Made by a program: the position numbers and the translations under genes. A stretch of DNA of 64,000 bases, from positions 1-64,000 of the forward strand of contig NZ_KB913018.1 of assembly GCF_000383975.1 (NCBI RefSeq), given 5' to 3'. This stretch comes from Natronorubrum tibetense GA33 (GTDB taxonomy: Archaea; Halobacteriota; Halobacteria; Halobacteriales; Natrialbaceae). Of the stretch, positions 2,212 through 54,234 are shown piece by piece. Every line of letters begins with the position of its first letter. Positions within the stretch are counted from its first letter, which is position 1. Under the pieces are notes generated by a model that searched no databases, had not been told where the DNA came from, and saw nothing but the letters and a program-made list of their open reading frames with translations.

Positions 2212-3474
2212 ATGACAATGGAGATAATCCCCGATCCTCGCCGTATGATCGCCAAGCGGATCTACTACGGCTGGATCATCGTCGCCGCCGCGCTGTTAGC
2301 CACGACGGCTGTGTACGGCACCAGTTACGCGTTTGGCGTCTTCTACGACGTGTTCATCGAAGAGTTTGACGTCTCGCGGTCCGTGCTGGCGGCGGTGTTC
2401 GGCTTCCAGACGGCGCTGATTTACGTCGTCGGCGTGGCTGCGGGCAGTGCCATCGACCGCTACGGCCAGCGGGCAGTCGCGGCCGTTTCGTCGCTCCTGT
2501 TTGTGACCGGGCTCGTCTGGGCCGCGCTATCGCGGTCGTATCTCGAGCTCCTGTTCGCCTACGGCCTGCTCAGCGCTATTGGAATGGGCGGTCTCTTCGT
2601 CGTGAGCTTCGCAACTATTCCGCTCTGGTTCGAGTCCAGGCGCGGGACGGCCTCGGGTATCGCTTCAGCCGGACTCGGAATCGGCATGGTCGTCTTTCCG
2701 CTCGGCGCCGACCTGCTCATTTCGTCGGTCGGCTGGCGGCGGGCGATGTTCGGGATCGCGGTCTTATCGACCGTTCTGTGTGTCGTGTTCACCGCGTTCT
2801 TCGCCAACCGCCCGTCGGACGTCGGTGCGGACGCGAGCGTGGAGTTTGACGGCGGCGAATCTCCGTTCGAGACGGCACAGGGGTATCCCGGCGACCGCAC
2901 ATCCCTCACGAGCAACGAAACGATTACGTCGGTGCCGTTTCTGCTGGTTTTTCTCAGTTGGGTACTGCTGTCGGCACCGATTTATATCGTCATCAGTCAC
3001 ATCGTTTCCTACGCGACGATCATCGGAATCGGCCGCTCAGAAGGAGTCCTCGCGCTCACCGCGATCGGCGTCACGGCCACGCTCGCTCGCTTCGGTATCG
3101 GCGCCCTAGCCGACAGGATCGGGCGCACCCGAACGTTCATCGCCAGCACGTACCTCCTCGGAGCTGCGATGCTCGGCATCACGTTCGCACCGATACCGGC
3201 GGTCTTTCTTGGAGCGATCGTCTGTTTCGGAGTCGCATACGGTGGCTGCGGCAGCCTCTTTTCGCCCTTGGTGGCCGACCTGTTCGGCCATGACGACCTC
3301 AACACATCCTTTGCCGTGATGTCACTCGCATTCGCGGTAGGGGGACTGTCGGCGCCACCGCTCGCCGGACTCTGGTTCGAAATCACCGGCAGTTACACGG
3401 GATCGTTCCTGGTCGCAAGTCTCGGGACCATCGTCGGTGCCGGTTGCGTCACGGCCGCGTCTCGGCTCGTCTGA
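2212..3474 (+). CDS. Major facilitator superfamily transporter
   Basis: About 420 residues with 12 predicted membrane segments, the first being YYGWIIVAAALLATTAVYG. The loop-2/3 region contains AIDRYGQRAV and the second half ADRIGRTRT, both versions of the MFS motif A. A charged central loop (residues ~205-240) separates the two six-helix halves. The overall pattern resembles the oxalate/formate and monocarboxylate antiporter branch, so an organic acid is a reasonable but unproven substrate. The frame is open from a GTG at 2167, but ATG 2212 or 2218, close to the first membrane segment, is the more natural start. It follows the AroD-like and NTF2-like genes in the same direction and may import their substrate. 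Confidence 0.85.
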   Translation: MTMEIIPDPRRMIAKRIYYGWIIVAAALLATTAVYGTSYAFGVFYDVFIEEFDVSRSVLAAVFGFQTALIYVVGVAAGSAIDRYGQRAVAAVSSLLFVTGLVWAALSRSYLELLFAYGLLSAIGMGGLFVVSFATIPLWFESRRGTASGIASAGLGIGMVVFPLGADLLISSVGWRRAMFGIAVLSTVLCVVFTAFFANRPSDVGADASVEFDGGESPFETAQGYPGDRTSLTSNETITSVPFLLVFLSWVLLSAPIYIVISHIVSYATIIGIGRSEGVLALTAIGVTATLARFGIGALADRIGRTRTFIASTYLLGAAMLGITFAPIPAVFLGAIVCFGVAYGGCGSLFSPLVADLFGHDDLNTSFAVMSLAFAVGGLSAPPLAGLWFEITGSYTGSFLVASLGTIVGAGCVTAASRLV

Positions 3475-32347: not shown

Positions 32348-32392
32348 ATGGAATCTAGCCAGATCCGGGCTCCCGAGGGTGATCACGCGTGA
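32348..32392 (+). CDS. Possible 14-codon leader peptide of the integrase
   Basis: ATG 32348 opens a short frame, MESSQIRAPEGDHA, ending TGA 32390-32392, which overlaps the GTG start of the integrase (GTGA). The coupling could let ribosomes terminate and restart, limiting integrase synthesis. A chance frame is equally possible. Confidence 0.3.
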   Translation: MESSQIRAPEGDHA

Positions 32393-33528
32393 CCATTGAA
32401 TCAACGGCTGTTGGGGCGCCGCTCGAGGAGTTCCTTCGATCGAAGTCCAAGGGCGGCGAGGGAAGCGGGAACTACCGACGGAACCTCGAGCGCTGCGTCG
32501 AGGACTTCCTTGCATGGCTCGAGGCGGATTCGCAGTCCGGAACGACGTTCGACGAGATCGACGTACGAACGTTCCGCCGGTACGCGCGCGAACTCACAAC
32601 CCGAGACCTCACGCCCGGAACGATTCGAACCTACTACGCTCAGGTGAGCGCCTACATTGGATGGTGCGTTCGAGAAGGACTTCTCGAGGTGAATTACGCG
32701 CAGCGAAACGTCGCGAAGGAGCCACTGCCAGAGAACAACGGACGACGATCGGGGGATCAACAGGCCTGGACCGACAAACACCGGCTACAGATCACTCGTT
32801 ACGTCGACGAACAAGCTCACGACGCAGCAGATAAGAAGGGATTTGGCGCGATCAAAGAGTTCCGCGATCGAGCTCTTGTCTATGTCCTCTGCTACTCGGG
32901 GGTGCGGGGCGGAGAAATCTTTGCGGACCCAAAGGATGATCGGCGAAACGGGCTTCGCTGGAGCGATGTTTCCCTCGAGGATCAGAAGATGACCGTCCTT
33001 GCGAAGAAGCAGGATTGGTCCGATCGATCGTTGACGAAACAGGCTGTAAATCCTATGCTACGATACAGACATATACTCGATCCGGCTAGTGACGACTGGC
33101 CAGTGTTTCCAACGTTTCACCTTCCCTCGCTCTACGAGACGCTTCGAACTGGGTTACGAGATGTTTACGGCTGGTCGACCGACGATATCGAAACGTTCGT
33201 CGACGAACTCACCGGGCAGACCGAAGTGTTCGAAGCCCTGCGCGAATATGACCTCTCACCGACCTCGATCAATACAGACGGTGCTCGGAGGATCATGCGC
33301 CGACTCTGCGAGGGAGCCGATCTCGACCTCGAGGGGAAGCACGGCTATCTCGCTCCTCACGGAGGACGCCGTGGCGCTGGAGAGGTGATGGTTCGTCAGC
33401 GCGGATTCACCGCTGCTGCTCGTCTCTTAGATAACAGTGAGGAAGTTGTTCGCAAGTCATATTCACACATCGAAGCGAAAGAGATGGCCGAAGATGCGGG
33501 AAACGCCTTCTCCGAACACGACCAGTGA
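32389..33528 (+). CDS. Tyrosine recombinase / integrase
   Basis: A 379-residue integrase. The N-terminal SAM-like DNA-binding domain covers about residues 10-105 (NYRRNLERCVEDFLAWLE, FRRYARELTTRDLTPGTI). The catalytic domain shows the first Arg in CYSGVRGGEIF (about 178), the second Arg in the box APHGGRRGAGEVMV (about 324, reading HGGR rather than HxLR) and the nucleophile Tyr in EEVVRKSYSHIEAKEM (about 363). Such enzymes integrate and excise plasmid- or virus-like elements. It starts at GTG 32389 because of the overlapping leader; no ATG fits. It marks one side of the accessory region containing the giant gene. Its att sites were not found. Confidence 0.88.
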   Translation: MTIESTAVGAPLEEFLRSKSKGGEGSGNYRRNLERCVEDFLAWLEADSQSGTTFDEIDVRTFRRYARELTTRDLTPGTIRTYYAQVSAYIGWCVREGLLEVNYAQRNVAKEPLPENNGRRSGDQQAWTDKHRLQITRYVDEQAHDAADKKGFGAIKEFRDRALVYVLCYSGVRGGEIFADPKDDRRNGLRWSDVSLEDQKMTVLAKKQDWSDRSLTKQAVNPMLRYRHILDPASDDWPVFPTFHLPSLYETLRTGLRDVYGWSTDDIETFVDELTGQTEVFEALREYDLSPTSINTDGARRIMRRLCEGADLDLEGKHGYLAPHGGRRGAGEVMVRQRGFTAAARLLDNSEEVVRKSYSHIEAKEMAEDAGNAFSEHDQ

Positions 33529-34100: not shown

Positions 34101-34595
34101 TCGCCGCCTTTAAGAGATCGACGGCGGATCGTTCTTTCGTGGACATAATGCGTAAACCCTTGACGTCCACACCATGAGGCTGTGATCACCGTGTTTGAGC
34201 CGGTGATCGAACGCCTCTCGGAACTTTTTGCGGAGTTGTCATCCGCTCAGCCGCGGTGTCGACCAAGGGCAGTTTGGATCGGTCAGGGCTAACGTATAGT
34301 TCTTCCCCACACCCCCACGTTAGAAAGATTATATTCTGTATTATATGAAAATCATTTGTGGGTACAGTGCGTGAGGTCAGCCGGATTGTACTGGGCCCTA
34401 TTGTAACCGTCAGAGCTACTTGCTCGAAAACCGTCATAATATTGCAGTGTATAACCTCGAGCGGTGCTGTATCTCCTTCCTGTTCGCGGTTTCAGCACTC
34501 GCCCGGGAAGGCACTCTTCGACTCAGTTCCGCTAAATCAACCCACCCCCCACCATGGGAATAGTTATTTGTAAACTCCCTATCTCGAGGACAAAT
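34101..34595. other. Intergenic region, ~500 bases
   Basis: No gene identified. AT-rich stretches near 34320-34345 (ATATTCTGTATTATATG) may serve as promoters, and short G/C-rich patches occur. No repeat stands out. Confidence 0.4.
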
Positions 34596-35030
34596 ATGAA
34601 GAAAAACGCTGACCCATCAAATAATGTCCAAGCACCATGCAAGAGACACAGTCCTCATTCACCTCCCAGTAGTATCTACTCAGTTCCTCCGTCAATAGGA
34701 CTTGGTGCACTCGTCCTTCAAGGGCGTCTGAATGGATGTCTTACTCCTACCTTCGCCCATATCGATACTCTCATTGCTTTCCTCGTGGCGGGACCTCTCC
34801 TCACCGTGATCGGTTTCTTTGGTCTTGCTGAACTGATTTCTAGATTTGTCCCACACTCTCGGTATGAATACTACTTAACTAATGCTGTGAGTATCTGTTT
34901 TCGGGTTAGTTCCGTCCTGATCCTAATTGGACTATTCTTTGTCTTTTTCGTGATATTCCTTGCCCCAGATTGGATTCAAGCTTGCTCTAGGTATGGTGAC
35001 GACACGGTTTCACTCATTTCCGCTCTGTGA
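34596..35030 (+). CDS. Small membrane protein upstream of the giant gene
   Basis: About 144 residues from ATG 34596. Three hydrophobic segments can be seen: around LIAFLVAGPLLTVIGFFGLA, around NAVSICFRVSSVLILIGLFF, and VFFVIFLAP; a weaker one occurs near residues 35-50. No family is recognised. It ends 21 bases before the giant translocase-primase gene in the same direction, so co-transcription is likely, and it could be a membrane partner of the translocase. This is inference from position. Confidence 0.55.
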   Translation: MKKNADPSNNVQAPCKRHSPHSPPSSIYSVPPSIGLGALVLQGRLNGCLTPTFAHIDTLIAFLVAGPLLTVIGFFGLAELISRFVPHSRYEYYLTNAVSICFRVSSVLILIGLFFVFFVIFLAPDWIQACSRYGDDTVSLISAL

Positions 35031-35051: not shown

Positions 35052-38000
35052 ATGAATCCAACCATGACAGACCCGTTAGGTCGAATCGCCGATCACGCTT
35101 TGCCCGACTGGATCAAACACGTCCGTCATTCCCAACTTGGGTCGCGTCCGTATGATGCGGTCGCACTTTCAGAAGAACAAGCAGATCAATTACAAGAGGC
35201 AGGTGAGTCATACCAAGGCTACCTCAACCGAATCCGTCCACACAAAAACGAGGACGGCCTCGAGTACGCCAGCGAACTCATCTCCACCCTCCACAACGAA
35301 AACGCGTCTCACTCGCGGCTCGCCCAGAAATTCAACCTCGCAGAGGAACCGAAAAAGTTCACCTTCGAACTGGTACTCAACGACGAAACCGTCGAGTTTC
35401 ACTGGGGACTGCCCGACACGATCGAACAGCGAGAGTTCCGCCAGCAGGTCTACGGACTGTACCCCAACTCCGAAATCAAGCCCGTCAAGAACAAGTTCCC
35501 CGAAATCGATCCGGGGATGTACGTCTCTGGGGGTAAACTTGAGCTATACAGCGAAAAATACCGTCCGATCAAAGGCACCAAGGGAGCTGATCAATTCGAA
35601 AACGACCCCTACCAGAGCATCCTGAGTGAACTCGTCGGTTACAGCGACGAGATTGCGATCGTCCAGTTTGTATTCACTCCCGCAAGCGACAAGTGGACAG
35701 AAGGCCACAAGTACCACGAGTTTAGCGCTGACCAGATCAACGATAGTCTCACGTACGGCCGAGTCAGAGGGAGTTACTGGAACCCCCGATTAGACGATCC
35801 CTCTTCAAAGGACCTCCGAGCAGCAGACGCTGTCCTCAATCAAGAAGGCAAGCAAGCCTTCTACGTCAACATCCGCTACCTCGTCTTCGCTTCAGCTTCG
35901 AAAATCGCCAAACACCACGCTCACGGTATTGGGTCGGTCTTCTCGTCACTCTACCACAACGACGAAATCGATCAGACGTTCACGCCACTGGCCTACCACG
36001 GCGATGGTCTCCTTGAGGAAGCTCGCCGAACAGCAGCCCGGGAGTTCCATTACGACCAGACCGCGCTTACAGTGGAAGAACTCGCGTCTGTCGCTCACCT
36101 CCCCGGCGAAAGCGTCGAATCAACAAACGTTGACTGGACTCGGAAAGGCGTCGGGAATCGCCCACCCGCCCAAGCCAAACGAACGGTCAAGCCGCCGGAC
36201 ATGGAGTACCAACGAGACACCTCTGATGTCAGCGGTGACGCCCTCGCGATGAGTTCCCTGTCGAACGACTCGATGGAGGAATCAGACACTGTCGGCAGTG
36301 AAACCACTGATAGCGATTCACTCCTCTGGAAAGGTGCCGAAGTCCTCGCACGCTTCCTCTTCGATGACAAAACTGACTCTGCAGATACCAACGCCCAAGG
36401 GGAAGATACTGTCGTCAAAATCGATAGCCCCGAACGACAGGAGGCATTCAACAACGTCTATCGCCGGTTCATCAACGGTGAACTCACCCGCCAACAGATC
36501 AAGGCCCAGTACAACGAGAACGTCGCAGATAACCTCCTCCGGAAATTCCGTGAACGACGTGCCGAGGAGATGGGCATCGACCTCGAGGAACTTGAGGATG
36601 GATCGATCTTCGACCAGCCGGGCGCTCGGAAAACACCCGACGAAGAACCAGAGCAGGACGACAAACCGGCCACGCAAGAAGATGACCAAGACGACGATAC
36701 TGCAAGCGAACACACACGCGAGACATCTGCCCCCGAGAGCGTTGAAACGACGTCGGGGCTGCCAGACACGGTTGACGACACACTCCCCGAAAAGCAGGAG
36801 TCTGGACTCCCGGCGACTGATCGCCGTGGCTTAGAGAACCCAGCCCACCCAGCCCACTACGTCTACGATCAGGCTGACAGTGACGTCCAGTTCCGGCGTG
36901 AGCCGGGCCTTCAGCAGTACTTCCCGTTCGAACTCAAAGCGTTCGCGAGTGGCAAAGAGTATGCTGAAGAGGGAGCCGTCTACTCCGGCTTCGACGTTCG
37001 CGACCGACTCGTCCACTCCCACGAACACAACCCGGACGAACCCATCTGGCTTGGCTACGATTCCAACCCAATGGACGGGATTCGAGAAATCGGTCTCGAG
37101 CCGTTCTCGTGGTTCCGCCATGCGACTGTCTTCGGATCGACCGGGAAAGGGAAATCCACGACGCTGAACAACATCATGAACCAGATCGCCCGGAAGGATC
37201 ATGGCTTCGTGTTCATAGACCCCAAGGGCGATACCGTCGACGACCTGATCACGCAACTTCCCGAAGATCGGATGGACGACATCCTCTGGGTCGAACCCGG
37301 CAGCGAAACCTTCGAGCAAGTCGCGGGCATCAACTTCCTCGAGCCCGGCAACTGCGAGACGGAGAAAGAGTTCAACCGGGAAGTCGAGTCGATTATTGAC
37401 GATCTCCGGGCCGTCCTCCGTGGCGGTGAGTACTGGGGACCGAAGATGGAGGGGATCACGTGTAACATCGCTCGTGCGATGATCCGCTCCCGGCGCAAGT
37501 TCACCCTCGTGGATATGTACTACGTGCTGGCCGACAGCGAGAGCCGAGCGAAGTTCTCGAACGTCGTCAGCCAAGAAGGGATGACGTTCATTCACGAGTA
37601 CACCACGAAAATCGCAGAGATGGACGACGAAGAAATCGACCCGGTGCTGCGCCGGATTCAGGACTGGGTCGAGGACCCCATCTCTCGGGGTATCGTCGCC
37701 CACCGAAAGGGGACGATCAACATCTCCGACGCCGTCGAAGAAGGAAAGATCATCCTCGTCCGGAATACGATCCGCTCCGACGAGATTCGGAAGGTTGTCT
37801 CGACGGGGATCATGCGCCGGGTCTGGTCGACCATCCGCAAGCGAGAGAAGATGCCCGAGGCAGAGCGGGAACCGTTCTTCGCGATCATGGACGAGTTCGA
37901 CGACATCGCCTCGGAGAACATGGCGCTCGACAAGATGCTCTCGAAGGCCCGGTCCGGGAAGATGGGCGTCATCACCTGCTTGCAGAATCCATCACAGGTG

Positions 38001-41000
38001 CGGGACTTCGCACCACAGACGCTCAAGCAGATGTTCGGTAACTCGGACACACTGATCAGCTTCGGTGTCACCGAGGTCGATGACGCGAAGATCATCGCCG
38101 AGCGTTTCGATGACGAGAATATCGACTCGAGTACGTTCATGTCACTGCCAGCGTTCACGGCACTGACGTCGATCTCCGTGATGGACGAGGACGGCCCGAT
38201 GCGGTCGGACCCACTGGCACCCAACACGTTCGCTGACTACCCGCCGCGGCGGACGAAAGCCGACGCCGAAGCGATCATCGGCGAGAACCTCGCTGAGTAT
38301 GGTGTCGATCCACTCGAGCAGGACCTCGACGAATCCGAACACGCCCTGATGCACCTCGGCGGTGAAGCTGACCTCACCAAAAGCTTCCTCGAGGCGTTGT
38401 GGGCCGAGCAGATCCGACAGAATGCCCTCGATACACTCGAGGCCGACTACGAGACGCTGGACCCGTCCCCGCCACTCAACATCGATGCCCCAAGCGCCGA
38501 TACCGATGGAGAAGCGGTCGCTGACGGCGGCACACTCACCGTCACTGTCGAAGACATCTTGGACGGCTTCAAACGCCGGACGAGTACCGCATTTGAGGAA
38601 CTCCCCGATGGAGTGATGCTTGACGAGGAGTACGTCGAACTCGTCGAGGATGAGGATGAACCAGACGACGACTCGATCCGTGGCAGTGGCGGCACCCCAC
38701 CCGGTGAAATCCGAATTGCGGAAACGGACACTGAACTCACGATCACGGACAAAGGCATCCGTGCCGTCCTCGAGCAAGCTGATGAGGACTGGCGACCTGA
38801 GACGGAGAAACACAATGAGGTCCTTCGGCGTGCGTTCGTCGTGTTCTCTGCAATCGGCATGGAAGTCACCATCGTACACCAAGAGAACAAAGAGAGTTTG
38901 CCAGACGCTGTTGCGTTCCCACCGATTGACACCACCGTTGAAACAAAACGGGCAGCGAAACTGCTTGAACAATTCGAGCGGGACTTCCCGATCGCTTCGG
39001 AACTCTCTGATGGCGGCGCAATCGCCATCGAAGCAGAGACTGCAACCTACAAGAAACCAGCACGAACCCTCGAAAACCTTGCTCGAGCAATCCGAAACGA
39101 GCAGAAGACGATGTTCATCACGCCAGAGAAGGAAGCAGATGACCGAACTGCGCCTGCTGCTCGAGTCAACCACATCCTGACTGACCCAATGTTCCATCGA
39201 GGTCACCTCCGAATACGTCCAAACGAGGACGAAGAGGATGTCGATAGTCCTGAAAACCGTGACCCACTCCCTCTCTACTACAACAAGACAGAGTACCTGA
39301 ACCTCGGGACTCCAACAGATGGCGAACGCAAACATGCAGTGATCGAACGAGGGAAACAGGCTGTTTGGGTGAAGACAGACGACAACGAGCTCAGGCTCTA
39401 CAACGGAATGACTGGCTCCAAGCGGCGTGGGAAACTCCGCATGGACGAGCACTTCGGTTCAACCAATGCTTTCGAGTCATGGTGCCGATTTGACGACCAT
39501 AACAACGAATGGATCGTCTATCCGGGTGGTGAAGCACAGCGATACAACACATTGGGTGATCTCAAAGAAGACTGGCAACTCGTCTACGAACCATTCGTCC
39601 CCGAACGCGAGTTCGAGGAGCAACCATCCGAAGACCAATGGGACATCGTCCAAACGCCGCTTCCAGACTTCCTCTCACCTGCCGGAAGTGATGAAGAGCC
39701 AGAAGTAGAGGGACCATCCGAAACAGACTACAACCACATCGGCGAGGTTCCAGAGGAGGCTGCACTCGACCAAAATCAATCAGCAGATGGAGATGAGGAC
39801 GACAACGACCCTGAGATAGACGCACGCAGAGCCGGGTTCACGAGAGAGGCAGTCCCACTCCCCAACCGACTGCTTCCAGAAGAGCTCCCAAACAGCACCA
39901 ACAACGCTATTGGACAGTCTGTCACCGGCGGCCAACAGTATACAACATTACCCGACGATGCCCTCGAGTCAATCATACCTGACGAGTATCAGGACGACTA
40001 TCGCGGCTTGACCGCACTCGCAGTAGCGGGCAACGATGCCGACCCGGTCGGACTCGACGAAGGCAGCGATGAGACTACAGAAGAAAGTGAGGGACAAGCC
40101 CCGGACGATACTGACGATACTAGCGTCGACGCTGAAGTCTCAGACGACGGCTTCGAAGTTGAAGATGACGACGATGGCCCAATCGATGTCCTCGGGGATG
40201 GAGACGAGACCGACACCAGCGCCCAGAGCGGCGCCGAACGAATCGCAAAGATTGAGTTTGACCAATACGCTGCTATGGAAGACCTGAACAACTACTACAT
40301 CGCAAACGACGCCGACGAGAGTACCGCCCCCGAAGATATTGAGATCGACGACGAGGCCGTTGCCGATCGCTTCGGAAGCAAGAAGCCGACGACCCGGAAG
40401 TTCTGGACACGGATCTGGGACTCAGCAAACGTCGACGAGACCAAACCGATCTACCGTAACCGACTCCCCGGCGCAGTCGAACTCGCCGGCACTCGGAGTA
40501 CACAGGTAGCCGATGCAGTCCAACTCGGCCTCGCTTCGGGCGAACTCGTCCCAGCTGGCGAAGACGAAGACGCTGTGCGACTGCCCGGCCCTCGCGATGC
40601 CTACCGCGACTACCTCGAGGATGATGAACTCGCGGAGGCTCAAGAGTGGAGTAACTGGAAACGGGTTTGGGACCGCTGCAATCGTGACCACTCCGAGTCA
40701 CTCCCAGTCCGGCGAGTCGTCATGATGGCAAGGCTGGTTTTCGATGTCGAAGAGCAACTGGCTCGAGCATCGATCGGCGCCGCAGTCGATACGGGTGTTC
40801 TCGGCGAATCTGGAACGGACCTCACACTCGGCGACCGGAGGGTCCCGGCCTTCTGGCGTGCCGTCCTCGATAACCTCAACGAACCTGCCCATACGGACAA
40901 CCACCTCCCCGAGCTCGTAAGTTGGGTCCAACTCACCCACGATATCGATGAGTCGGTGGCCAAGGCCTGCATCGATGCTGGTGTCGATCATGGCGCAGTC

Positions 41001-44000
41001 TATACCCAAGATGAGGGTATGGAGACCTATCACATCAACACACCTCGAGACAACCGTGGCCCGGAAATCGCTGAGGAAGCGTTCGATCCAGACGCCTACC
41101 CTCCAAGTGGCGATTCCGATAGTGGTGCAGGCGACAATGGCGACGGAGACGATGACGACAACTCTGGACCGAGCCAAACCGACGGAGAAACTGAGTCACC
41201 CCCATTGTCCGAGCAAACCGAAGCAGACAGAGATGGACCTGCCACGGATTCGTCGCCGACTGACGCAACGTCCAACTCCAGTGGAGCGGACCACAACGAG
41301 AACCAACAGGAGGCAGACAGCACACCCGGAGAGCAGGCGACCGAGACCGATGCGACCAAGACCACGTCTCAAGACGAAAATCGCACAGCGACCGACTCAG
41401 CGACTCACAGCGAATCGACCGATCAAGACTCGAGTGCTGACGGGGAACAGTCTTCTGAGACACCCACTGAAAATGACGATGGCTCAGAAGACGAGAGCGC
41501 CTCACAGAGCGATTCCAGTGAAACGAGTAGTGTAGGTCAAACAGCAGACGGCGAGCCGCGTACCGAGCCCAACAGCACACTCGAAACGAAAGACACGGAC
41601 GACCTTCGACTCAAACCCACACCGGACCTCGGTGCCGTCCAAGCCTGTCTCGAGGAAGCCGCTCAGTTCTTCCACGACCAACTGGACCAAGAGATCGACC
41701 ACAACGTCGAGTGGAACGAAGACCGAGCGTTCGAGGAAGGCTACCGAATGCCCGAGACCCCACGCGAGTACTTCACCAGTCTCGAGGGAAGCGATCCAGC
41801 CTACCCAGTCGAGCAGGATCCCGATGCTGCCGATGCGATGCCCGCCCATCGCGACGACCAACCAACGGGAATACAGTCGGTCGCAGACGCCGAACAGAAA
41901 GTAGCCAGCCCCAGCGACTTCGCCGTCGACGGGCAACCCTACCAGTTCCTCGGCGCCGATCACCGTGGCTGGAGCGAGTCGATCGTCGAACAGAAGCAAC
42001 TCGGCTGGGCACCCGCCTTCGGCAAGGAACTGTTCTTCCATCTCGAGGAGGAGGGCTTCTCCCATCACACAATGGTCGCGACGGGGCTGTTCACGAAACC
42101 GAATGACGCCTACGGAGAGAACAGCGACGGTGAGGGCTTCGTGGACTACAGCCGCGTCGATGATCCAGACGATCTATCGTGTCTGTTCCGTGGTCGCTAC
42201 ATCTTCCCCTACTACGACGAGGAAGGGAGAGTCGCGTTCTTCATCGGCCGCTGTCCCGATTTCGACACCGAGTATGGCACCCATCCCGAAGACTTCACCA
42301 ATGGCAAGTACGCCAAGCTCGCGACGACGAAGAACTACACCATCGTCGAAGAGCCGATCTACGGCCGAGAGACGATCCGCGACGGCGAGCCACTCGTCAT
42401 CACCGAGGGGATGGCCGACGCGATCACCGCTCATGCTCACGGTATTCCGTGCATCTCGCCAGTGACGAAGACGTTCAAGCTGAAACACCGCGACGTACTG
42501 GCCGACATCATCCGCGGGCGCCAGATCCCCGACGTCTACTTCCTGCAGGATAGCGACCCACCGAAGCGTGTCGTCCTCGCCGAAGAAGATCAGGATCACG
42601 ACGAACGGGCCTGCCAACGAGCAATGAACGTCCGGAAGCTGTTCTGTACCGGCGAGTTTCCCGGCGGGCCAGAGTTCACGCCAAACACTGTCGTCAGTGC
42701 CGCCGAAAACGATATCCTCGACGATATGCTCGAGGATCAGGACCTCCGTGTCTCCCCACCAGCCGATCCAGAGGCAGACGCCGAGGAAGAGACACCGGTC
42801 ACGGCTGATGAAGTTCCAGTCCACCTCCTGACGACAGAGATGGACCGACCACGTGGGACCGGCCCAATCAGCGAGGCGATCGAGATTCACCAACACGGGC
42901 CCGGTGTGGACAGCGCGGTCAACATGGGTCGCGTACTGGATACGCACACCCCATCCCCTGACGATACGTTCACCGGGACCGTCCAGATGGCCACAGACAT
43001 CTATCGCGAAGAAGTCGTCAACGGCGATTCCGATCCTACGAACGACTACAACGACCTGATGTCGGAACTCGCAGACCGACTTCTCTCGATCAACTTCGAG
43101 ACCGAGGCAGACACCGAAGACGACTCGAAGAGTGAAGAAGACGGACAGGCCGCCCTCGCGGATGAACCAGACCCAGACCGTTTCGACTACGGTGGGACGA
43201 ACGTCTGGCTGATCGAGCTCCCACAGTTCGGTGACGAAAAGCGCGACCTCGACGACTACCTACAGAACGGTTGGCTGGCGCTGGCGCCGCCTGCAGACTG
43301 GGCTCTCCGACTGACGATGGAAGATACCCCATCGGTCAAAGAACAGCGTGACGGACAAGCCACGGCCCCTGAGTGGATGCAGGCACTCGCCCAACGTGCC
43401 GATCCCGTCGCAGACTACCCGACCGGCATGGACACGGACTCACTGAACTACCCAGTGGCTCACGACCTCCTCAACACGGTCGGCTCGATTCCGCACGCAG
43501 CGGCTGGAGACGACTTCCCAGTGAAGTCGCCGCACGTCATCAACTCGGTTCCGGAAGCCGACAGCGACGAACTGCAGGCCACTCACAGACATCCTGTTGC
43601 CGACGCTGCCGAGCTACGGCAAGACAACAATGCACTCACCCCGACCCCAGAGTCGCCTCATGTCTACCCACCACTCTCGCTGTTCGGCGTCATCCCGACG
43701 ATACACCCAACGCAGCATCCCGCAGCTTCGGGGACAGTCGGTGGCCTCGTCAACTCCGACAGCGCCTCGACGATCGATGTCGACCCACAGGAGATCGACG
43801 ATCGTGCTGAGGAGCAGGACTACAAGAGACTCACTGGGAAGCACAATCCCATCTGGAGTCTCGAGCTTCGCGACCTCGGTCTGACCCCCGGCTCGCGAGG
43901 GAAGAATCCGTTCGGTCACTTCGGCGAATCGCAGAACTACTTCGTCGTGATCGACGACGATTTCGCCTACTGCCACAAGCGCGAGGCAGTATACAATTTC

Positions 44001-44858
44001 CAACACTTCGCCCTGTGCGACATGGGCCATCGCGACGGATCCACGTCGGCGAAAGGTCAGAATCTCGATGACTATGAATACTTCCTCCTGTGGAAGTACG
44101 CACGCCAAAATGGACTGGTCCCAGAGCACACACCGATCCCGCTCAAGGGGCTGGTCGGCTACGCGCTCAAGCACGACTTCTGTGACCCAGAAGACCTCGA
44201 GCAGTTCGGGGGTTCGGAGGGGGCAGACGACGGGGCAGATGACGACGATTCGGGATCGAATGAGAAGCCGCTCACACGTAATCTCAAGCTCCCCGATGAC
44301 ACCTACTTCCCAGTTCTCAAAGATATCGAAGAAGAGACTGGATACACTCCTGCACGCCTCGGTGACAGCGGATCCAGAGAGGGACAGACCGACCACGGTG
44401 ATGGCCCCAAAGATGCCCCCGATGTGGACCCTGATGAAGTCGCCCGTGAGGAGGCACTCGAGAAGTTCAGTGGCTACTATCTCCTTGGGGACGACTGGCC
44501 GGACCCGATGGACCAATTCTTGAACGGGTTCGTCGAGTTCGATGACGAGATCACTGCGGACAAAGACGAGTCCAATTTCACCCCCGTCTCGGACGTCCGT
44601 GATGCCTACAATGCATGGGTACAGATCACCCTCGAAGACCTACGTCAAGATCCTGAGAAAAACGTCGACGAAGCCGACATCAAAACCTACGCCCCGGGCG
44701 GATTCTCGAGCCGGTTAAAGTCGGTTTCTAATGTGGATCTCCCGAAGAAGAAGATCACGATCGAGGGTCGTGGTCGCCCCCGATGCTACTTCGGTATCAC
44801 CCTGACTGAGGAGGGCGAGCAGCTCGCCCAGCTCGAGGGTGAGTTCACGGACGATTAG
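35052..44858 (+). CDS. Giant fused DNA-translocase ATPase / DnaG-like primase, 3268 residues
   Basis: One uninterrupted 9.8-kb frame. Residues ~70-350 form an N-terminal domain like those before TraG/VirD4-type or HerA-like ATPases. The ATPase follows (about 660-1080): Walker A GSTGKGKST at 695-703, FIDPKGD, Walker B FFAIMDEFDD with Asp947-Glu948, and a TraG-like end (TLISFGVTEVDDAKIIAERF). Residues ~1230-1350 may be a PD-(D/E)XK fold (Asp1285, Glu1327, Glu1329, Lys1334/1335). Winged-helix-like repeats lie near 1745-1990, then a Ser/Thr/Asp-rich linker (~2010-2185). The DnaG-like part has ACLEEAAQFFHDQL, FLGADHRGWSESIVEQKQLG, TOPRIM Glu2452 in VITEGMADAI and Asp2500/Asp2502 in FLQDSD. The end has a possible Cys/His motif and a winged helix. 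A role in conjugative or replicative DNA processing is inferred. Confidence 0.85.
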   Translation: MNPTMTDPLGRIADHALPDWIKHVRHSQLGSRPYDAVALSEEQADQLQEAGESYQGYLNRIRPHKNEDGLEYASELISTLHNENASHSRLAQKFNLAEEPKKFTFELVLNDETVEFHWGLPDTIEQREFRQQVYGLYPNSEIKPVKNKFPEIDPGMYVSGGKLELYSEKYRPIKGTKGADQFENDPYQSILSELVGYSDEIAIVQFVFTPASDKWTEGHKYHEFSADQINDSLTYGRVRGSYWNPRLDDPSSKDLRAADAVLNQEGKQAFYVNIRYLVFASASKIAKHHAHGIGSVFSSLYHNDEIDQTFTPLAYHGDGLLEEARRTAAREFHYDQTALTVEELASVAHLPGESVESTNVDWTRKGVGNRPPAQAKRTVKPPDMEYQRDTSDVSGDALAMSSLSNDSMEESDTVGSETTDSDSLLWKGAEVLARFLFDDKTDSADTNAQGEDTVVKIDSPERQEAFNNVYRRFINGELTRQQIKAQYNENVADNLLRKFRERRAEEMGIDLEELEDGSIFDQPGARKTPDEEPEQDDKPATQEDDQDDDTASEHTRETSAPESVETTSGLPDTVDDTLPEKQESGLPATDRRGLENPAHPAHYVYDQADSDVQFRREPGLQQYFPFELKAFASGKEYAEEGAVYSGFDVRDRLVHSHEHNPDEPIWLGYDSNPMDGIREIGLEPFSWFRHATVFGSTGKGKSTTLNNIMNQIARKDHGFVFIDPKGDTVDDLITQLPEDRMDDILWVEPGSETFEQVAGINFLEPGNCETEKEFNREVESIIDDLRAVLRGGEYWGPKMEGITCNIARAMIRSRRKFTLVDMYYVLADSESRAKFSNVVSQEGMTFIHEYTTKIAEMDDEEIDPVLRRIQDWVEDPISRGIVAHRKGTINISDAVEEGKIILVRNTIRSDEIRKVVSTGIMRRVWSTIRKREKMPEAEREPFFAIMDEFDDIASENMALDKMLSKARSGKMGVITCLQNPSQVRDFAPQTLKQMFGNSDTLISFGVTEVDDAKIIAERFDDENIDSSTFMSLPAFTALTSISVMDEDGPMRSDPLAPNTFADYPPRRTKADAEAIIGENLAEYGVDPLEQDLDESEHALMHLGGEADLTKSFLEALWAEQIRQNALDTLEADYETLDPSPPLNIDAPSADTDGEAVADGGTLTVTVEDILDGFKRRTSTAFEELPDGVMLDEEYVELVEDEDEPDDDSIRGSGGTPPGEIRIAETDTELTITDKGIRAVLEQADEDWRPETEKHNEVLRRAFVVFSAIGMEVTIVHQENKESLPDAVAFPPIDTTVETKRAAKLLEQFERDFPIASELSDGGAIAIEAETATYKKPARTLENLARAIRNEQKTMFITPEKEADDRTAPAARVNHILTDPMFHRGHLRIRPNEDEEDVDSPENRDPLPLYYNKTEYLNLGTPTDGERKHAVIERGKQAVWVKTDDNELRLYNGMTGSKRRGKLRMDEHFGSTNAFESWCRFDDHNNEWIVYPGGEAQRYNTLGDLKEDWQLVYEPFVPEREFEEQPSEDQWDIVQTPLPDFLSPAGSDEEPEVEGPSETDYNHIGEVPEEAALDQNQSADGDEDDNDPEIDARRAGFTREAVPLPNRLLPEELPNSTNNAIGQSVTGGQQYTTLPDDALESIIPDEYQDDYRGLTALAVAGNDADPVGLDEGSDETTEESEGQAPDDTDDTSVDAEVSDDGFEVEDDDDGPIDVLGDGDETDTSAQSGAERIAKIEFDQYAAMEDLNNYYIANDADESTAPEDIEIDDEAVADRFGSKKPTTRKFWTRIWDSANVDETKPIYRNRLPGAVELAGTRSTQVADAVQLGLASGELVPAGEDEDAVRLPGPRDAYRDYLEDDELAEAQEWSNWKRVWDRCNRDHSESLPVRRVVMMARLVFDVEEQLARASIGAAVDTGVLGESGTDLTLGDRRVPAFWRAVLDNLNEPAHTDNHLPELVSWVQLTHDIDESVAKACIDAGVDHGAVYTQDEGMETYHINTPRDNRGPEIAEEAFDPDAYPPSGDSDSGAGDNGDGDDDDNSGPSQTDGETESPPLSEQTEADRDGPATDSSPTDATSNSSGADHNENQQEADSTPGEQATETDATKTTSQDENRTATDSATHSESTDQDSSADGEQSSETPTENDDGSEDESASQSDSSETSSVGQTADGEPRTEPNSTLETKDTDDLRLKPTPDLGAVQACLEEAAQFFHDQLDQEIDHNVEWNEDRAFEEGYRMPETPREYFTSLEGSDPAYPVEQDPDAADAMPAHRDDQPTGIQSVADAEQKVASPSDFAVDGQPYQFLGADHRGWSESIVEQKQLGWAPAFGKELFFHLEEEGFSHHTMVATGLFTKPNDAYGENSDGEGFVDYSRVDDPDDLSCLFRGRYIFPYYDEEGRVAFFIGRCPDFDTEYGTHPEDFTNGKYAKLATTKNYTIVEEPIYGRETIRDGEPLVITEGMADAITAHAHGIPCISPVTKTFKLKHRDVLADIIRGRQIPDVYFLQDSDPPKRVVLAEEDQDHDERACQRAMNVRKLFCTGEFPGGPEFTPNTVVSAAENDILDDMLEDQDLRVSPPADPEADAEEETPVTADEVPVHLLTTEMDRPRGTGPISEAIEIHQHGPGVDSAVNMGRVLDTHTPSPDDTFTGTVQMATDIYREEVVNGDSDPTNDYNDLMSELADRLLSINFETEADTEDDSKSEEDGQAALADEPDPDRFDYGGTNVWLIELPQFGDEKRDLDDYLQNGWLALAPPADWALRLTMEDTPSVKEQRDGQATAPEWMQALAQRADPVADYPTGMDTDSLNYPVAHDLLNTVGSIPHAAAGDDFPVKSPHVINSVPEADSDELQATHRHPVADAAELRQDNNALTPTPESPHVYPPLSLFGVIPTIHPTQHPAASGTVGGLVNSDSASTIDVDPQEIDDRAEEQDYKRLTGKHNPIWSLELRDLGLTPGSRGKNPFGHFGESQNYFVVIDDDFAYCHKREAVYNFQHFALCDMGHRDGSTSAKGQNLDDYEYFLLWKYARQNGLVPEHTPIPLKGLVGYALKHDFCDPEDLEQFGGSEGADDGADDDDSGSNEKPLTRNLKLPDDTYFPVLKDIEEETGYTPARLGDSGSREGQTDHGDGPKDAPDVDPDEVAREEALEKFSGYYLLGDDWPDPMDQFLNGFVEFDDEITADKDESNFTPVSDVRDAYNAWVQITLEDLRQDPEKNVDEADIKTYAPGGFSSRLKSVSNVDLPKKKITIEGRGRPRCYFGITLTEEGEQLAQLEGEFTDD

Positions 44859-46810
44859 TAGTTCACCACTGCCTTTCGACCTCGATTTTCGTCGTTCACC
44901 TCAACCGTTTCCCGCTTACTTCTCAGATTTCGTATGTGGATCTCACTTCCTATTCACTACTGTAAGACCACCACAAAATCTCTTCTAACTCAACGTTCAG
45001 GACTCCCAATTACCCCTCCACCAACCGCCTCTCAACGCCTCTCAATCGAACTATAATCCACAGACACAACCAGAAAATTATCTCTGGTATTGGCGGTCTG
45101 TGGCGAGTATAGAGATAGCCTGCTCCAGCGCCGTCTCTGAGTTAGCTGACCACCCTCGGATATCCAAATCAAAACCGCAAGAGGGAGACGGGTGTCCGGG
45201 GGTTAGATGTAGGGAAAACCACTCCAATATAATCCGTAGAATTAGGTGCGGATCGCGATTAGACGCTGGCCTCGATTATTACAGCCCCACAAACATGGAA
45301 TATGCGATTTCCGAGAAATATGAAAATAACCATACGGCGTCGGGTGTCCGGGGGGTCGCCAATCCAAAATATTACCCCCCGGACACCAGTCTATAATCGC
45401 AAGACGGAGACGGGTGTCCGCGGGTTCACTTCGGACTTTATTCCGCTTCTAATACTCACATTTCAGATACGAAATTCCATATCGTGAAAATAACCATACG
45501 GCGTCGGGTTAGGGGTGATTTCATCACTCCTCTGTGACCCCCCTCGGACATCCCCACAAAATCGCAAGAGGGCGTCGGGTGTCCGAGGGGGTGTTACCCC
45601 ATCAACATTTTTGACTTAGAAATACGCACACTAAACGCCTGTAACGCAGGAATATGAGCTCTCGAGTAGTTATTACAGACCTGAGTTTATTTCACACTTT
45701 GAGAGCCCCCCTGATTTTGCCAGCGGCGTCTGGAAAATACCGGTCTATCCCCCCGTTGGGTGGGGGTGTTCAGGCCACTGGGCCAAGAGTCAGAAGAGCT
45801 AGATAGACTTGGGCTGAAGAAGACAGCAACACACCCCCTTTCCCCCTGAAGGGGGATGGACTGAATTGGAGAGAAAAGAAGGTGAGTGAGAGAGGGGAAG
45901 TGAGGAGTGACCAGACGATCTCCCACCGGCCGGATGGCCTCTCTCCGAACACCAGTAACCAGCAGTCGACGGCCACCACAGCTGGCCGTCTCTCAGTGAA
46001 CACAGGTCTGTCGAATATCTAGGCGAATCTGATATAGAACAATAACCCAACTTCCTCCGGTCAGTGGGACCGACGAGTGGAGACAAGTCTTGACCAAGAT
46101 GTCCTGTTGGACTTCCCGTTCCAGATGTCTCCTGATGACCGACGGCCACCTCCGTTTCACTCATCTCGACGAGGCCTGTTGACCCTCGACCCTTCGGTGG
46201 AGATGAAGACCATGCTGGTCGCGACGATCGTTGTTCAACTGGACTCGATTCACCGGCGACGAGATGCCTCTCCCTCTGTGTCAGGTTGACCTAGATATTG
46301 GTGGTTGTTGACCATCTGGATTCCACTCGGATTCGTCCCTCAGTGATGGCCACGAACTGGCCGCGATAAGACCGTGGGTGACTACTACTGAATCACCTCC
46401 GACGTCGGTGACCGACTGGCTGTGATCGACACCACGATTCACCCCCAGATGCGGCAGTGAATTAGCCGCTATTCGACCGTTGATTCCGACTGGATTCAGA
46501 CCCCAATAATTGGCTCCGAACCAACCTCGTTGAGAGACCGCTATCGCCGGACTCGATTCACCACTGATCGTGGCTGTGAACAAACCCCGATTCAAACTTC
46601 TTCGAGCCGTCGATCTCACGGTCGTATCAGCTTCTCGAGGTACCACCACGACCGGCTGTTGACCAGCTTATCGACGACCGACAAACGCGGCCGGAAACCA
46701 CTTCCAGTCTGAGGGACAGAAGCTGCGGTCTGTGTTCTTGTGTGCGAACGAGACGCGACTCGCCAACGCGGGAATCCACGAAGTGGATATCCAGAACAGA
46801 CAAAGACCAA
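44859..46810. other. Two-kilobase gene-free region with repeat array
   Basis: No convincing gene. The left part (45150-45600) carries repeats listed separately. The middle (45700-45900) is rich in C and G runs (for example CCCCCTGAAGGGGG near 45843, a small hairpin). The right part (46170-46700) has degenerate recurring motifs such as GGACTCGATTCACC (46241 and 46549) and TGTTGACC (46173, 46305, 46652). It separates the giant gene from the convergent histidine-kinase gene. Confidence 0.55.
45151..45590. repeat. Iteron-like repeat array with inverted partners
   Basis: Five related units occur. The core GGGTGTCCG is at 45190, 45342, 45412 and 45577; a fifth unit with the same left part ends GGGTTAGGG near 45506. 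The left parts are of two types: CGCAAGAGGGAG/CGCAAGAGGGCG/CGCAAGACGGAG and CCATACGGCGTCGGGT. Units at 45321-45345 and 45485-45509 are identical over 25 bases. Inverted partners of the core precede or follow: a perfect 14-base pair at 45343-45356 and 45374-45387 (loop 17), and a 12-base pair at 45539-45550 and 45579-45590. Such arrays are usual for replication origins, oriT sites or cooperative repressor sites. Confidence 0.75.
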
Positions 46811-49982: not shown

Positions 49983-51281
49983 ATGGGAGACGTGATTCGC
50001 ACCGTCAAAGTCAAACTCAACGTACCCACAGAGTGGTGCGACGACTTCCATCAGACGAAAGACCAGTTCCTCCACTGTGCGAACACAACCGCAGGGTGGG
50101 CGTGGAGACATCCACAGGACTACTGCGTGACCTCGAAACAGAAAGCCGAGAAAGCCCTCTACGAGCGACTTCGCGATGAGACTGAGTTAACCGCGAATCT
50201 CGTCCAGAAAGGGATTCGGCGTGCTATCGAGGCTACCAAAAGCGGTGTCGCTCGCCTCAAGAAAGGCGACAAGACGAGTCAACCACATTTCGATGCATGG
50301 AGCGTCGTCTACGACAAACGAAGCGCGACATTCCACCGCGACCACGTTTCCCTTTCCACAGTAAACGGGCGTGTCGAGTGCGACTACGTGATTCCCGACG
50401 ATCCAGAGGGAACACCGGTTGACGAGTACTTGCTGAACGAGGATTACGAGTTCCGTATGTCCACGTTACAGTACGACCGTTCCACAGAGTCGTTCTATCT
50501 CCATGCACGGATGCGCCGAACCGAAAGTGACGAGCAGTCCACGACTGATTCTTCCGATGCCAAGCACAGAACAGTCCTTGGCGTTGACCTGAACGTGGAC
50601 GGCTCGCTCGCCGTAACTTCCACAGGTGCGTTCATCGGGAACGCTGACGAGGTGAACCACCGACGCCGAGAATTTGAGAAGACTCGTGCGTCGATGCAAC
50701 AGACGGGAACGCGGTCGGCGCACCTGTCGATTCAGTCACTGAAAGACCGCGAACACCGCTGGATGCAGGACAAACTACACCGAGCATCGAACCAGATTCT
50801 CGAAGAAGCCCGTGACCACGACTGTACGCATATCGCGTTCGAGAATCTGACCGATATTCGCAAGCGGATGGCTGGTGCCAAGCGATTCCACGCTTGGGCG
50901 TTTCGACGCCTCCACCAGTACGTCGAATACAAAGCCGAGATGTTCGGTATCATGGTTGAACAGGTGAGTCCTGCGTACACCAGTCAGCGGTGTTCATCTT
51001 GTGGGTTTACCCACGAGTCGAATCGGCGGTCGAAGCACCAGTTCGTGTGTCAGAAGTGCGAGTACGAACTGAACGCTGACTACAACGCGAGCAAGAACAT
51101 CGCTCGCAAACTTCTCAAGAAACTCCACTCGGGGCAGAAGTCTTCGAGTGGAGGCGCACTCTGTCAGTGTGCGCTACCGTCAGGGACGCTGAACTTGAAC
51201 GGCGATTTCCACGCCTCCGTCAGTTCGACGGCAGAAGGGGAGTCCACTGACAAGCCCACGACTTCAGTCGTGGGTCACTGA
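49983..51281 (+). CDS. tnpB: TnpB RNA-guided nuclease, apparently intact
   Basis: A 432-residue TnpB. The RuvC residues are Asp in GVDLNVDGSLAV (about 201), Glu in IAFENLTDI (about 283) and Asp in NADYNASKNI (about 364). The zinc finger is CSSCGFTH and CQKC. The N-terminal part (IRTVKVKLNVPTEW, HFDAWSVVYDKRSATF) is the wedge/REC region. The end reads PTTSVVGH, encoded by the right-end hairpin. With its guide RNA it would cut DNA at the emptied donor site and retain the element. It is the only one of three tnpB genes here that looks functional. Confidence 0.9.
   Translation: MGDVIRTVKVKLNVPTEWCDDFHQTKDQFLHCANTTAGWAWRHPQDYCVTSKQKAEKALYERLRDETELTANLVQKGIRRAIEATKSGVARLKKGDKTSQPHFDAWSVVYDKRSATFHRDHVSLSTVNGRVECDYVIPDDPEGTPVDEYLLNEDYEFRMSTLQYDRSTESFYLHARMRRTESDEQSTTDSSDAKHRTVLGVDLNVDGSLAVTSTGAFIGNADEVNHRRREFEKTRASMQQTGTRSAHLSIQSLKDREHRWMQDKLHRASNQILEEARDHDCTHIAFENLTDIRKRMAGAKRFHAWAFRRLHQYVEYKAEMFGIMVEQVSPAYTSQRCSSCGFTHESNRRSKHQFVCQKCEYELNADYNASKNIARKLLKKLHSGQKSSSGGALCQCALPSGTLNLNGDFHASVSSTAEGESTDKPTTSVVGH

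Positions 51282-53526: not shown

Positions 53527-54234
<708 letters not shown>

Follow-up and report, generated by a model that had tools for sequence, protein, structure and literature searches.

The first 64,000 nucleotides of contig NZ_KB913018.1 of Natronorubrum tibetense GA33 (the window) encode a giant protein in which a conjugation-type ATPase motor, a DnaG-like primase and a C-terminal winged-helix domain are joined in one chain; an iteron-like site follows the gene directly. The wing of this winged helix and the core of the downstream repeats vary together among relatives of the giant, which probably starts the handling of its own plasmid's DNA by itself. The giant is read here as a coupling-protein-derived initiator, and the process served is most likely plasmid transfer (probability about 0.5). 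A first-pass annotation had proposed the fusion of motor and primase, which proved genuine; the winged helix, which it had missed, is new here, along with the parallel to T4SS operons that encode a coupling protein and a PrimPol.

Domain architecture of the giant

The giant gene is a single uncut frame, open throughout its 3268 codons (Table 1), and the residues of its ATPase (GSTGKGKST at 695-703 and DE at 947-948) lie exactly where the first-pass annotation had placed them. Pfam matches over residues 688-1028 include TrwB_AAD_bind (5e-10), TraG-D_C (1e-6) and also DUF87, giving the giant the P-loop motor, Walker A and B motifs and TraG-D_C/TrwB similarity of a type IV coupling protein. Among the PHROGs, the motor is matched by phrog_5156 and residues 2304-2506 by DNA primase families, and the NCBIfam models for TraD, VirD4-like CD1115 and dnaG match the giant, all below their cut-offs. 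Aligning 11 diverse full-length relatives shows no variation at residues G695, G698, G700, K701, T703, D947, E948, E2452 and D2456.

Table 1 Positions of the giant gene, its domains and neighbouring features in the window
Feature	Residues	Position	Strand	Basis or remark
Tyrosine integrase		32389..33528	+	PF13102; tblastn to L010/L083
158-aa membrane protein		34554..35030	+	two strong membrane segments; directly upstream of giant
Giant gene, 3268 aa		35052..44858	+	open frame; full-length relatives; purifying selection
Module A	5-385	35064..36206	+	matches N-terminal part of PHROG 5156
VirD4/TraG/HerA-type motor	640-1116	36969..38399	+	Walker A 37134-37160; Walker B 37890-37895
Coupling-protein extension domain	1220-1540	38709..39671	+	alignment with T4SS coupling proteins
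Variable region	1770-2020	40359..41111	+	resembles three winged-helix repeats, by eye only
DnaG-type primase core, first part	2296-2510	41937..42581	+	contains E2452, D2500, D2502
Insertion inside TOPRIM, about 210 aa		42582..43211	+	alignment; Halorubrum/Natronorubrum giants
Last TOPRIM motif LDDYL	2733-2737	43248..43262	+	alignment
Domain D	2865-3060	43644..44231	+	common to stand-alone plasmid primases
C-terminal winged-helix domain		44472..44855	+	hhalign to T4SS coupling-protein C-termini, P 96.7%, E 4e-10
Wing EGRGRPRC	3238-3245	44763..44786	+	varies together with downstream repeat core
Iteron block		45153..45591	.	core CCCCGGACACC / GGTGTCCGGGG, both orientations
Conserved hairpin site		45673..45855	.	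three hairpins at 45749-45855
Hairpin-site element CCCCCCGTTGGGTGGGGG		45749-45766
Hairpin-site element TTCAGGCC....GGCCAAGAGT		45769-45790
Hairpin-site element CCCCCTGAAGGGGG		45842-45855
Further non-coding DNA		45856..46717	.	conserved with nearest relatives

Profile searches recovered no known fold for module A and no PDB match for the variable region. The extension domain, in which H1254, Q1277, D1285, E1327-A-E1329, P1336, Y1410 and W1439 are invariant, has no Pfam or PDB match and is undescribed. Its motif resembles, by eye only, the pattern of PD-(D/E)XK nucleases, and if the domain were such a nuclease the coupling protein would have its own nicking activity. A hydropathy scan of the giant found no N-terminal transmembrane segment; its only candidate, a weak one at residue 1257, is buried within a conserved domain. 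AlphaFold models of residues 1-400 and 2190-2770, for which there were only six similar sequences, had a pLDDT of about 31.

In the primase half, the TOPRIM residues E2452, D2500 and D2502 had been correctly positioned by the first-pass annotation, and the latter two form a DxD or DxE pair in most relatives (GTD in one divergent relative). Pfam finds DNAG_N at residues 2304-2402 (1e-4), and a profile of 28 TOPRIM sequences finds, in the PDB, solved structures of bacterial DnaG primases with E 7e-17 to 2e-5, all other structures having E >= 0.8; the segment aligns best with DnaG, not with an unrelated fold. Carrying a DNAG_N/TOPRIM core with the catalytic acidic residues, it is classed as DnaG-type and would putatively synthesise primers. 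Bacterial DnaG has the same core and the motifs EG..D, DxD/DxE and DDYL, whereas the giant differs in its TOPRIM insertion, in its fused motor and in having no recognised N-terminal zinc domain, the search for a CHC2 zinc-binding domain giving no Pfam zinc-domain match in the whole giant.

The integrase and membrane-protein genes upstream and the repeats downstream, all named in the first-pass annotation, are present. A small gene similar to that of the membrane protein lies directly upstream of the giant in L003, L004, L078 and L081, and not in Halorubrum, and by tblastn the tyrosine integrase has a counterpart only in the H. persicum locus (L010/L083). As for the features of an ICE, an integrase is present, no tRNA was found within the window and there are no channel genes on the giant's contig, C2. 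A ParA-type ATPase gene is found upstream of the giant in L009, L010, L011 and L013, in some cases with a small partner gene. The window also contains two TnpB-type genes with a Cas12f1-like TNB domain, at 49983-51281 (+) and 53527-54234 (-).

Relatives and origin of the fusion

A search of other haloarchaeal genomes, as suggested in the first-pass annotation, found the fusion in full-length relatives of 3118-3401 aa at about ten other loci. Among them are a copy in Natronorubrum thiooxidans (77% identical), copies at five Halorubrum loci (about 61-70%) and on two Halobaculum plasmids, and three that are more divergent and 3118-3401 aa long. The fusion is not an assembly fault, since independent contigs and complete plasmids carry it, and close relatives are fused rather than encoded as separate genes. 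No relative of the motor was found in viral contigs.

Values of dN/dS across motor and primase are 0.04-0.13 between the window and its nearest relative, and those for motor and primase core are 0.03-0.13 in all four pairs compared, which points to purifying selection on the giant and to conservation well above what chance would give. Other copies are truncated or interrupted (L001, L002, L005, L015): the H. ezzemoulense copy has lost its 5' part to an insertion sequence, the Halorubrum sp. PV6 copy is in two parts and the H. lacusprofundi copy is cut. Such copies, together with the lack of channel genes in cis, would be expected of a decaying orphan coupling protein with a passenger primase, having no present function or only interfering with other elements; the low dN/dS in every pair and the intact frames in about ten loci make this very improbable.

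Each half of the giant also exists alone, since short T4SS-type motors and stand-alone primases were found, and the giant joins these pieces. The motor is kept with its repeats, and the primase absent, in L006, L078 and L079, a point against the initiator reading, and the H. salinarum copy is without the primase stretch, residue 2016 being joined in frame to residue 3121. The stand-alone primases recovered by searching with the primase are about 470-1800 aa long and about 40% identical to the giant in the TOPRIM core, with domain D common to both; several are on small plasmids, and the majority run on into a different P-loop part.

The motor tree has a branch with support 99/98 that separates all fused giants from the T4SS-type proteins, among which L090 also has module A fused. 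The TOPRIM tree, which has long branches, does not place the giants in a single supported clade relative to the stand-alone primases; it is compatible with capture of the primase in either one or two events.

The cis site behind the stop codon

Repeats are found behind the stop codon in all giants looked at, each with its own core (weak in L079), as 3-7 copies located 0.3-0.7 kb behind the stop. The iteron block of the window also includes GAAAATAACCATACGG motifs at 45322 and 45486. The Natronorubrum and Halorubrum giants are followed by a gene-free stretch of about 2 kb with conserved blocks at fixed distances, and the hallmark TTCAGGCCNNNNGGCCAAGAGT of this stretch occurs in 8 of 391 haloarchaeal genomes, always about 0.9 kb behind a giant gene or its remnant.

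A structured RNA was considered for this region and rejected, as no Rfam family reached threshold and the only structures from RNAalifold were three short hairpins in which compensatory change was nearly absent. Because compensatory change is so scarce, the hairpins are preferably read as a putative DNA site.

Between 45673 and 45749 (about +815 to +890 behind the stop) the site is of two types, GTGTTGAAAAGGTACGATATA or GTCTG.GATATACC.GGTAATA, and this segment splits the loci in the same way as giant residues 1244-1347, 7 kb away. Many segments recombine, and this joint split may be due to chance (roughly one in ten by the author's estimate). A 420-bp stretch of a Natronorubrum bangense plasmid (L145, 15001-15419) resembles the non-coding DNA of the window at +1442 to +1858 with no giant beside it and is possibly a relic. 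Just after the conserved non-coding stretch, L001 (20465-20668) and its Halorubrum equivalents encode a small membrane protein with a CxxC...CxxC motif.

Co-variation of the wing and the repeats

The giant ends in a winged-helix domain of approximately 110 residues, a relative of the domain at the C-terminus of phage primases. This relationship is drawn via the T4SS relatives: L087-type coupling proteins match phage DNA primase C-termini over their last 100 residues (PHROG 1829 and 6088, E about 1e-6), and the giant's own C-terminal segment alone has no primase match in PHROGs.

Twelve giant loci present five wing types (GRGRPRC, GKQVRT, PRKTV, NRPTV and GRGRAKC) and five repeat cores (CGGACA, CGGATA, TTGACC, TTGACG and CCGACA), and the assignment of wing type to core is one to one, with a strictly diagonal copy matrix and no mismatch. 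Counted over 2.1 kb behind the stop codon, all core copies lie in the first 775 bp. If types combined freely, the chance of such a match would be 7e-5 for nine non-redundant units or 2e-4 for eight, shared ancestry being ignored.

L009 and L011, about 95-100% identical across most of the stretch compared, differ from codon -40 to +720, and L013 and L002 have the same pattern, the exchange comprising the wing codons and a repeat block of about 720 bp. L144 and the window have wing and repeat in common although their domains are only 40% identical. Two genomes encode two giants each, L012 and L013 in H. laminariae, with different wing and repeat types, and L076 and L077 in G174, with different repeat cores, differences that are as expected if the types define compatibility.

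Since the wing codons adjoin the repeats, exchange in one tract explains part of the co-variation, and the match could then be a case of hitch-hiking, in which both elements, lying within 1 kb, are exchanged together and the repeats are not bound by the protein. The exchange tracts, spanning wing codons and repeat block together, are in line with this account. One-tract exchange does not, however, explain the absence of any mismatch, which extends over the 12 giants and the main classes of 33 coupling proteins (below). L144 acquires the window wing by two changes relative to L010, yet its whole repeat array has the window core, and the C-terminal domain belongs to a DNA-binding family. Hitch-hiking is accordingly improbable, and it is very likely that the C-terminal domain binds the repeats. 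The wing-repeat pairs would then amount to a readable specificity code, from which origin or transfer-origin sites and their partners could be predicted across haloarchaeal plasmids.

Short relatives in T4SS operons

Searching with the motor also recovered a second and commoner class of relatives, of about 1000-1650 aa, most of which have module A as a separate gene (about 390-590 aa) directly upstream. The L087 operon encodes a T4SS pilin (PF18895), a 594-aa protein, TrbL/VirB6 (PF19590) and a VirB4-type ATPase, followed by module A, the coupling protein and a primase gene, the last being a PrimPol with an NrS-1-type helix bundle (phrog_1829, E 3e-95). Of the 46 short loci, 34 have a PrimPol immediately after the coupling protein, and those without it are also without a recognisable winged helix, except for one cut by a contig end.

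Repeats, mostly in 3-5 copies, are present within 450 bp behind the coupling-protein gene in 33 short loci; in nearly all of these a PrimPol gene follows the coupling protein. The wing class DGDDLVTVY is associated with the repeat CCCTGAACA, VDG(D/E)RVQFY with TGTCCACGCA, QDGDRVQFY with TGTCCAACC, DGDDKVNVY with CCCCGGACA, and both KDG(E/K)RITVH and VDGERVTVY with CCCTGGACA. Two apparent exceptions, L157 and L165, do contain TGTCCACGCA copies, and the repeats of the small classes L150, L152 and L158 are too weak to assign.

The C-terminal domain of these T4SS proteins predicts the repeat type when the upstream 285 aa are controlled for (partial r 0.66, p 2e-4 by permutation of labels, uncorrected for ancestry), and the reverse prediction, from the upstream 285 aa with the C-terminus controlled for, fails (partial r -0.36). 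None of the 75 pairs with a similar upstream part but a different C-terminus share a repeat. The coupling protein thus seems to carry its own origin-recognition domain, working with a primase either in trans or, in the giant, in the same chain. Such a protein would depart from the textbook scheme of transfer, where choosing the DNA is the task of the relaxosome. In L085-L088 and L146-L178, the combination of a primase-type C-terminal domain, matching downstream iterons and a PrimPol marks candidate origin or oriT sites of numerous elements.

The process served by the giant

Plasmid transfer is considered most likely because the combination of motor, winged helix and repeats, with a primase gene adjoining, sits in complete haloarchaeal T4SS operons, and because the complete replicons checked carry their own Orc1/Cdc6 initiators (the giant's replicon in the window's genome, G000:C2, at 221477, as well as G223:C3, G146:C3 and G148:C2). 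Comparison establishes that the fusion is real and conserved, that its motor motifs are intact, that its primase is related to DnaG and that winged helix and repeats co-vary; from this we infer binding, ATP-driven movement and primer synthesis in the following order. The C-terminal winged helix would bind the repeats directly behind its own gene, gathering several copies of the giant there; the VirD4/HerA-type ring would then load on the repeat DNA, moving or unwinding it; and the DnaG-type primase of the same chain would start the complementary strand. The fused primase would in this way tie the start of transfer or replication to priming in one chain.

A serious alternative of lower probability is a vegetative replication initiator of the P4-alpha or pRN1 type, in which a VirD4/HerA ring would replace the SF3 helicase and the origin would follow the gene directly. 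The giant resembles P4 alpha and pRN1 in its primase, ATPase and winged helix, and P4 alpha in its iterons; four Halorubrum loci have a ParA gene next to the giant, and the coexistence of two repeat types in H. laminariae (L012 and L013) is what incompatibility would favour. The replicons checked, however, have the Orc1/Cdc6 initiators listed above, the motor is of the coupling-protein type with its nearest relatives in T4SS operons, and a helicase role is not established for ATPases of the VirD4/HerA type.

For plasmid transfer, the channel that the giant would use is not encoded beside it. VirB4, VirB6 and pilin genes were not found on contig C2, the whole genomes of the giant carriers G111, G249, G223 and G146 gave no match to VirB4, VirB6 or a T4SS pilin, and no MobA/MobL relaxase was found in 14 genomes. 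The lack of these channel genes on C2 and in several giant-bearing genomes argues against simple conjugation. It had been suggested in the first-pass annotation that the chain could pump single-stranded DNA while priming its complement; the fusion behind this idea holds, and the pumping stays a conjecture, no VirB4 or VirB6 relative having been found on C2. In G000, VirB4 and VirB6 are encoded on contig C5 beside another motor-like gene, so that supply in trans is possible in this genome.

A more far-reaching scheme appears rather unlikely as a whole. Under it, coupling proteins in haloarchaeal conjugation would choose their DNA through the C-terminal winged helix and the iterons behind the gene, working with a primase, and the giants would recognise, drive, prime and perhaps nick (through the extension domain, PD...ExE) in one chain, without relaxase or VirB channel genes.

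Comparison with known systems

Coupling proteins of the VirD4/TraG/TrwB group have in common with the giant the P-loop motor, the Walker A and B motifs and the TraG-D_C region, and the giant's short relatives lie in T4SS operons. The giant differs in having no membrane segment and in having module A, the extension domain, the C-terminal winged helix and the DnaG primase in its chain, and, unlike the short relatives, it is not encoded with VirB4 and channel genes. PHROG 5156, which includes gp156 of Bacillus phage G, likewise combines module A and motor in one protein, but spans only 824 positions, with no primase and no winged helix described.

The P4 alpha protein contains a TOPRIM primase, and its C-terminal winged helix is the domain that binds the iteron origin of P4; in pRN1 the origin, a stem-loop, follows the primase-helicase gene directly on its downstream side (PMC4234260). 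P4 alpha and pRN1 ORF904 are therefore like the giant in combining a primase, an ATPase and a C-terminal winged helix, and differ in being far smaller and in using an SF3 helicase, for which the giant, with its VirD4-type motor, has no Pfam match. Directly behind their gene, the Rep-Arvir (DUF7845) rolling-circle initiators have a variable recognition motif and then a conserved hairpin (PMC13107129), but they are unrelated to the giant, which has no DUF7845 match. Rep-Arvir was also rejected as a partner of the giant, as it is found in G000 only on contig C1, with no DUF7845 on contig C2.

The open-access literature, to which the search was confined (subscription papers lying outside it), described neither the fusion nor coupling proteins carrying a C-terminal domain of this kind, which is weak evidence of novelty. 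The start of haloarchaeal plasmid transfer was likewise not described in the open-access papers found.

Stand-alone haloarchaeal plasmid TOPRIM primases, such as that of the 13,972-bp plasmid of Halorubrum sp. BOL3-1, resemble the giant in their TOPRIM core and in domain D, and usually carry the P-loop part ALPATGKT, not a VirD4 motor. In the plasmid primases of 1100-1800 aa (L099, L096, L098, L104 and others) this P-loop is missed by Pfam, and these proteins may form an unnamed primase-helicase family found on small haloarchaeal plasmids.
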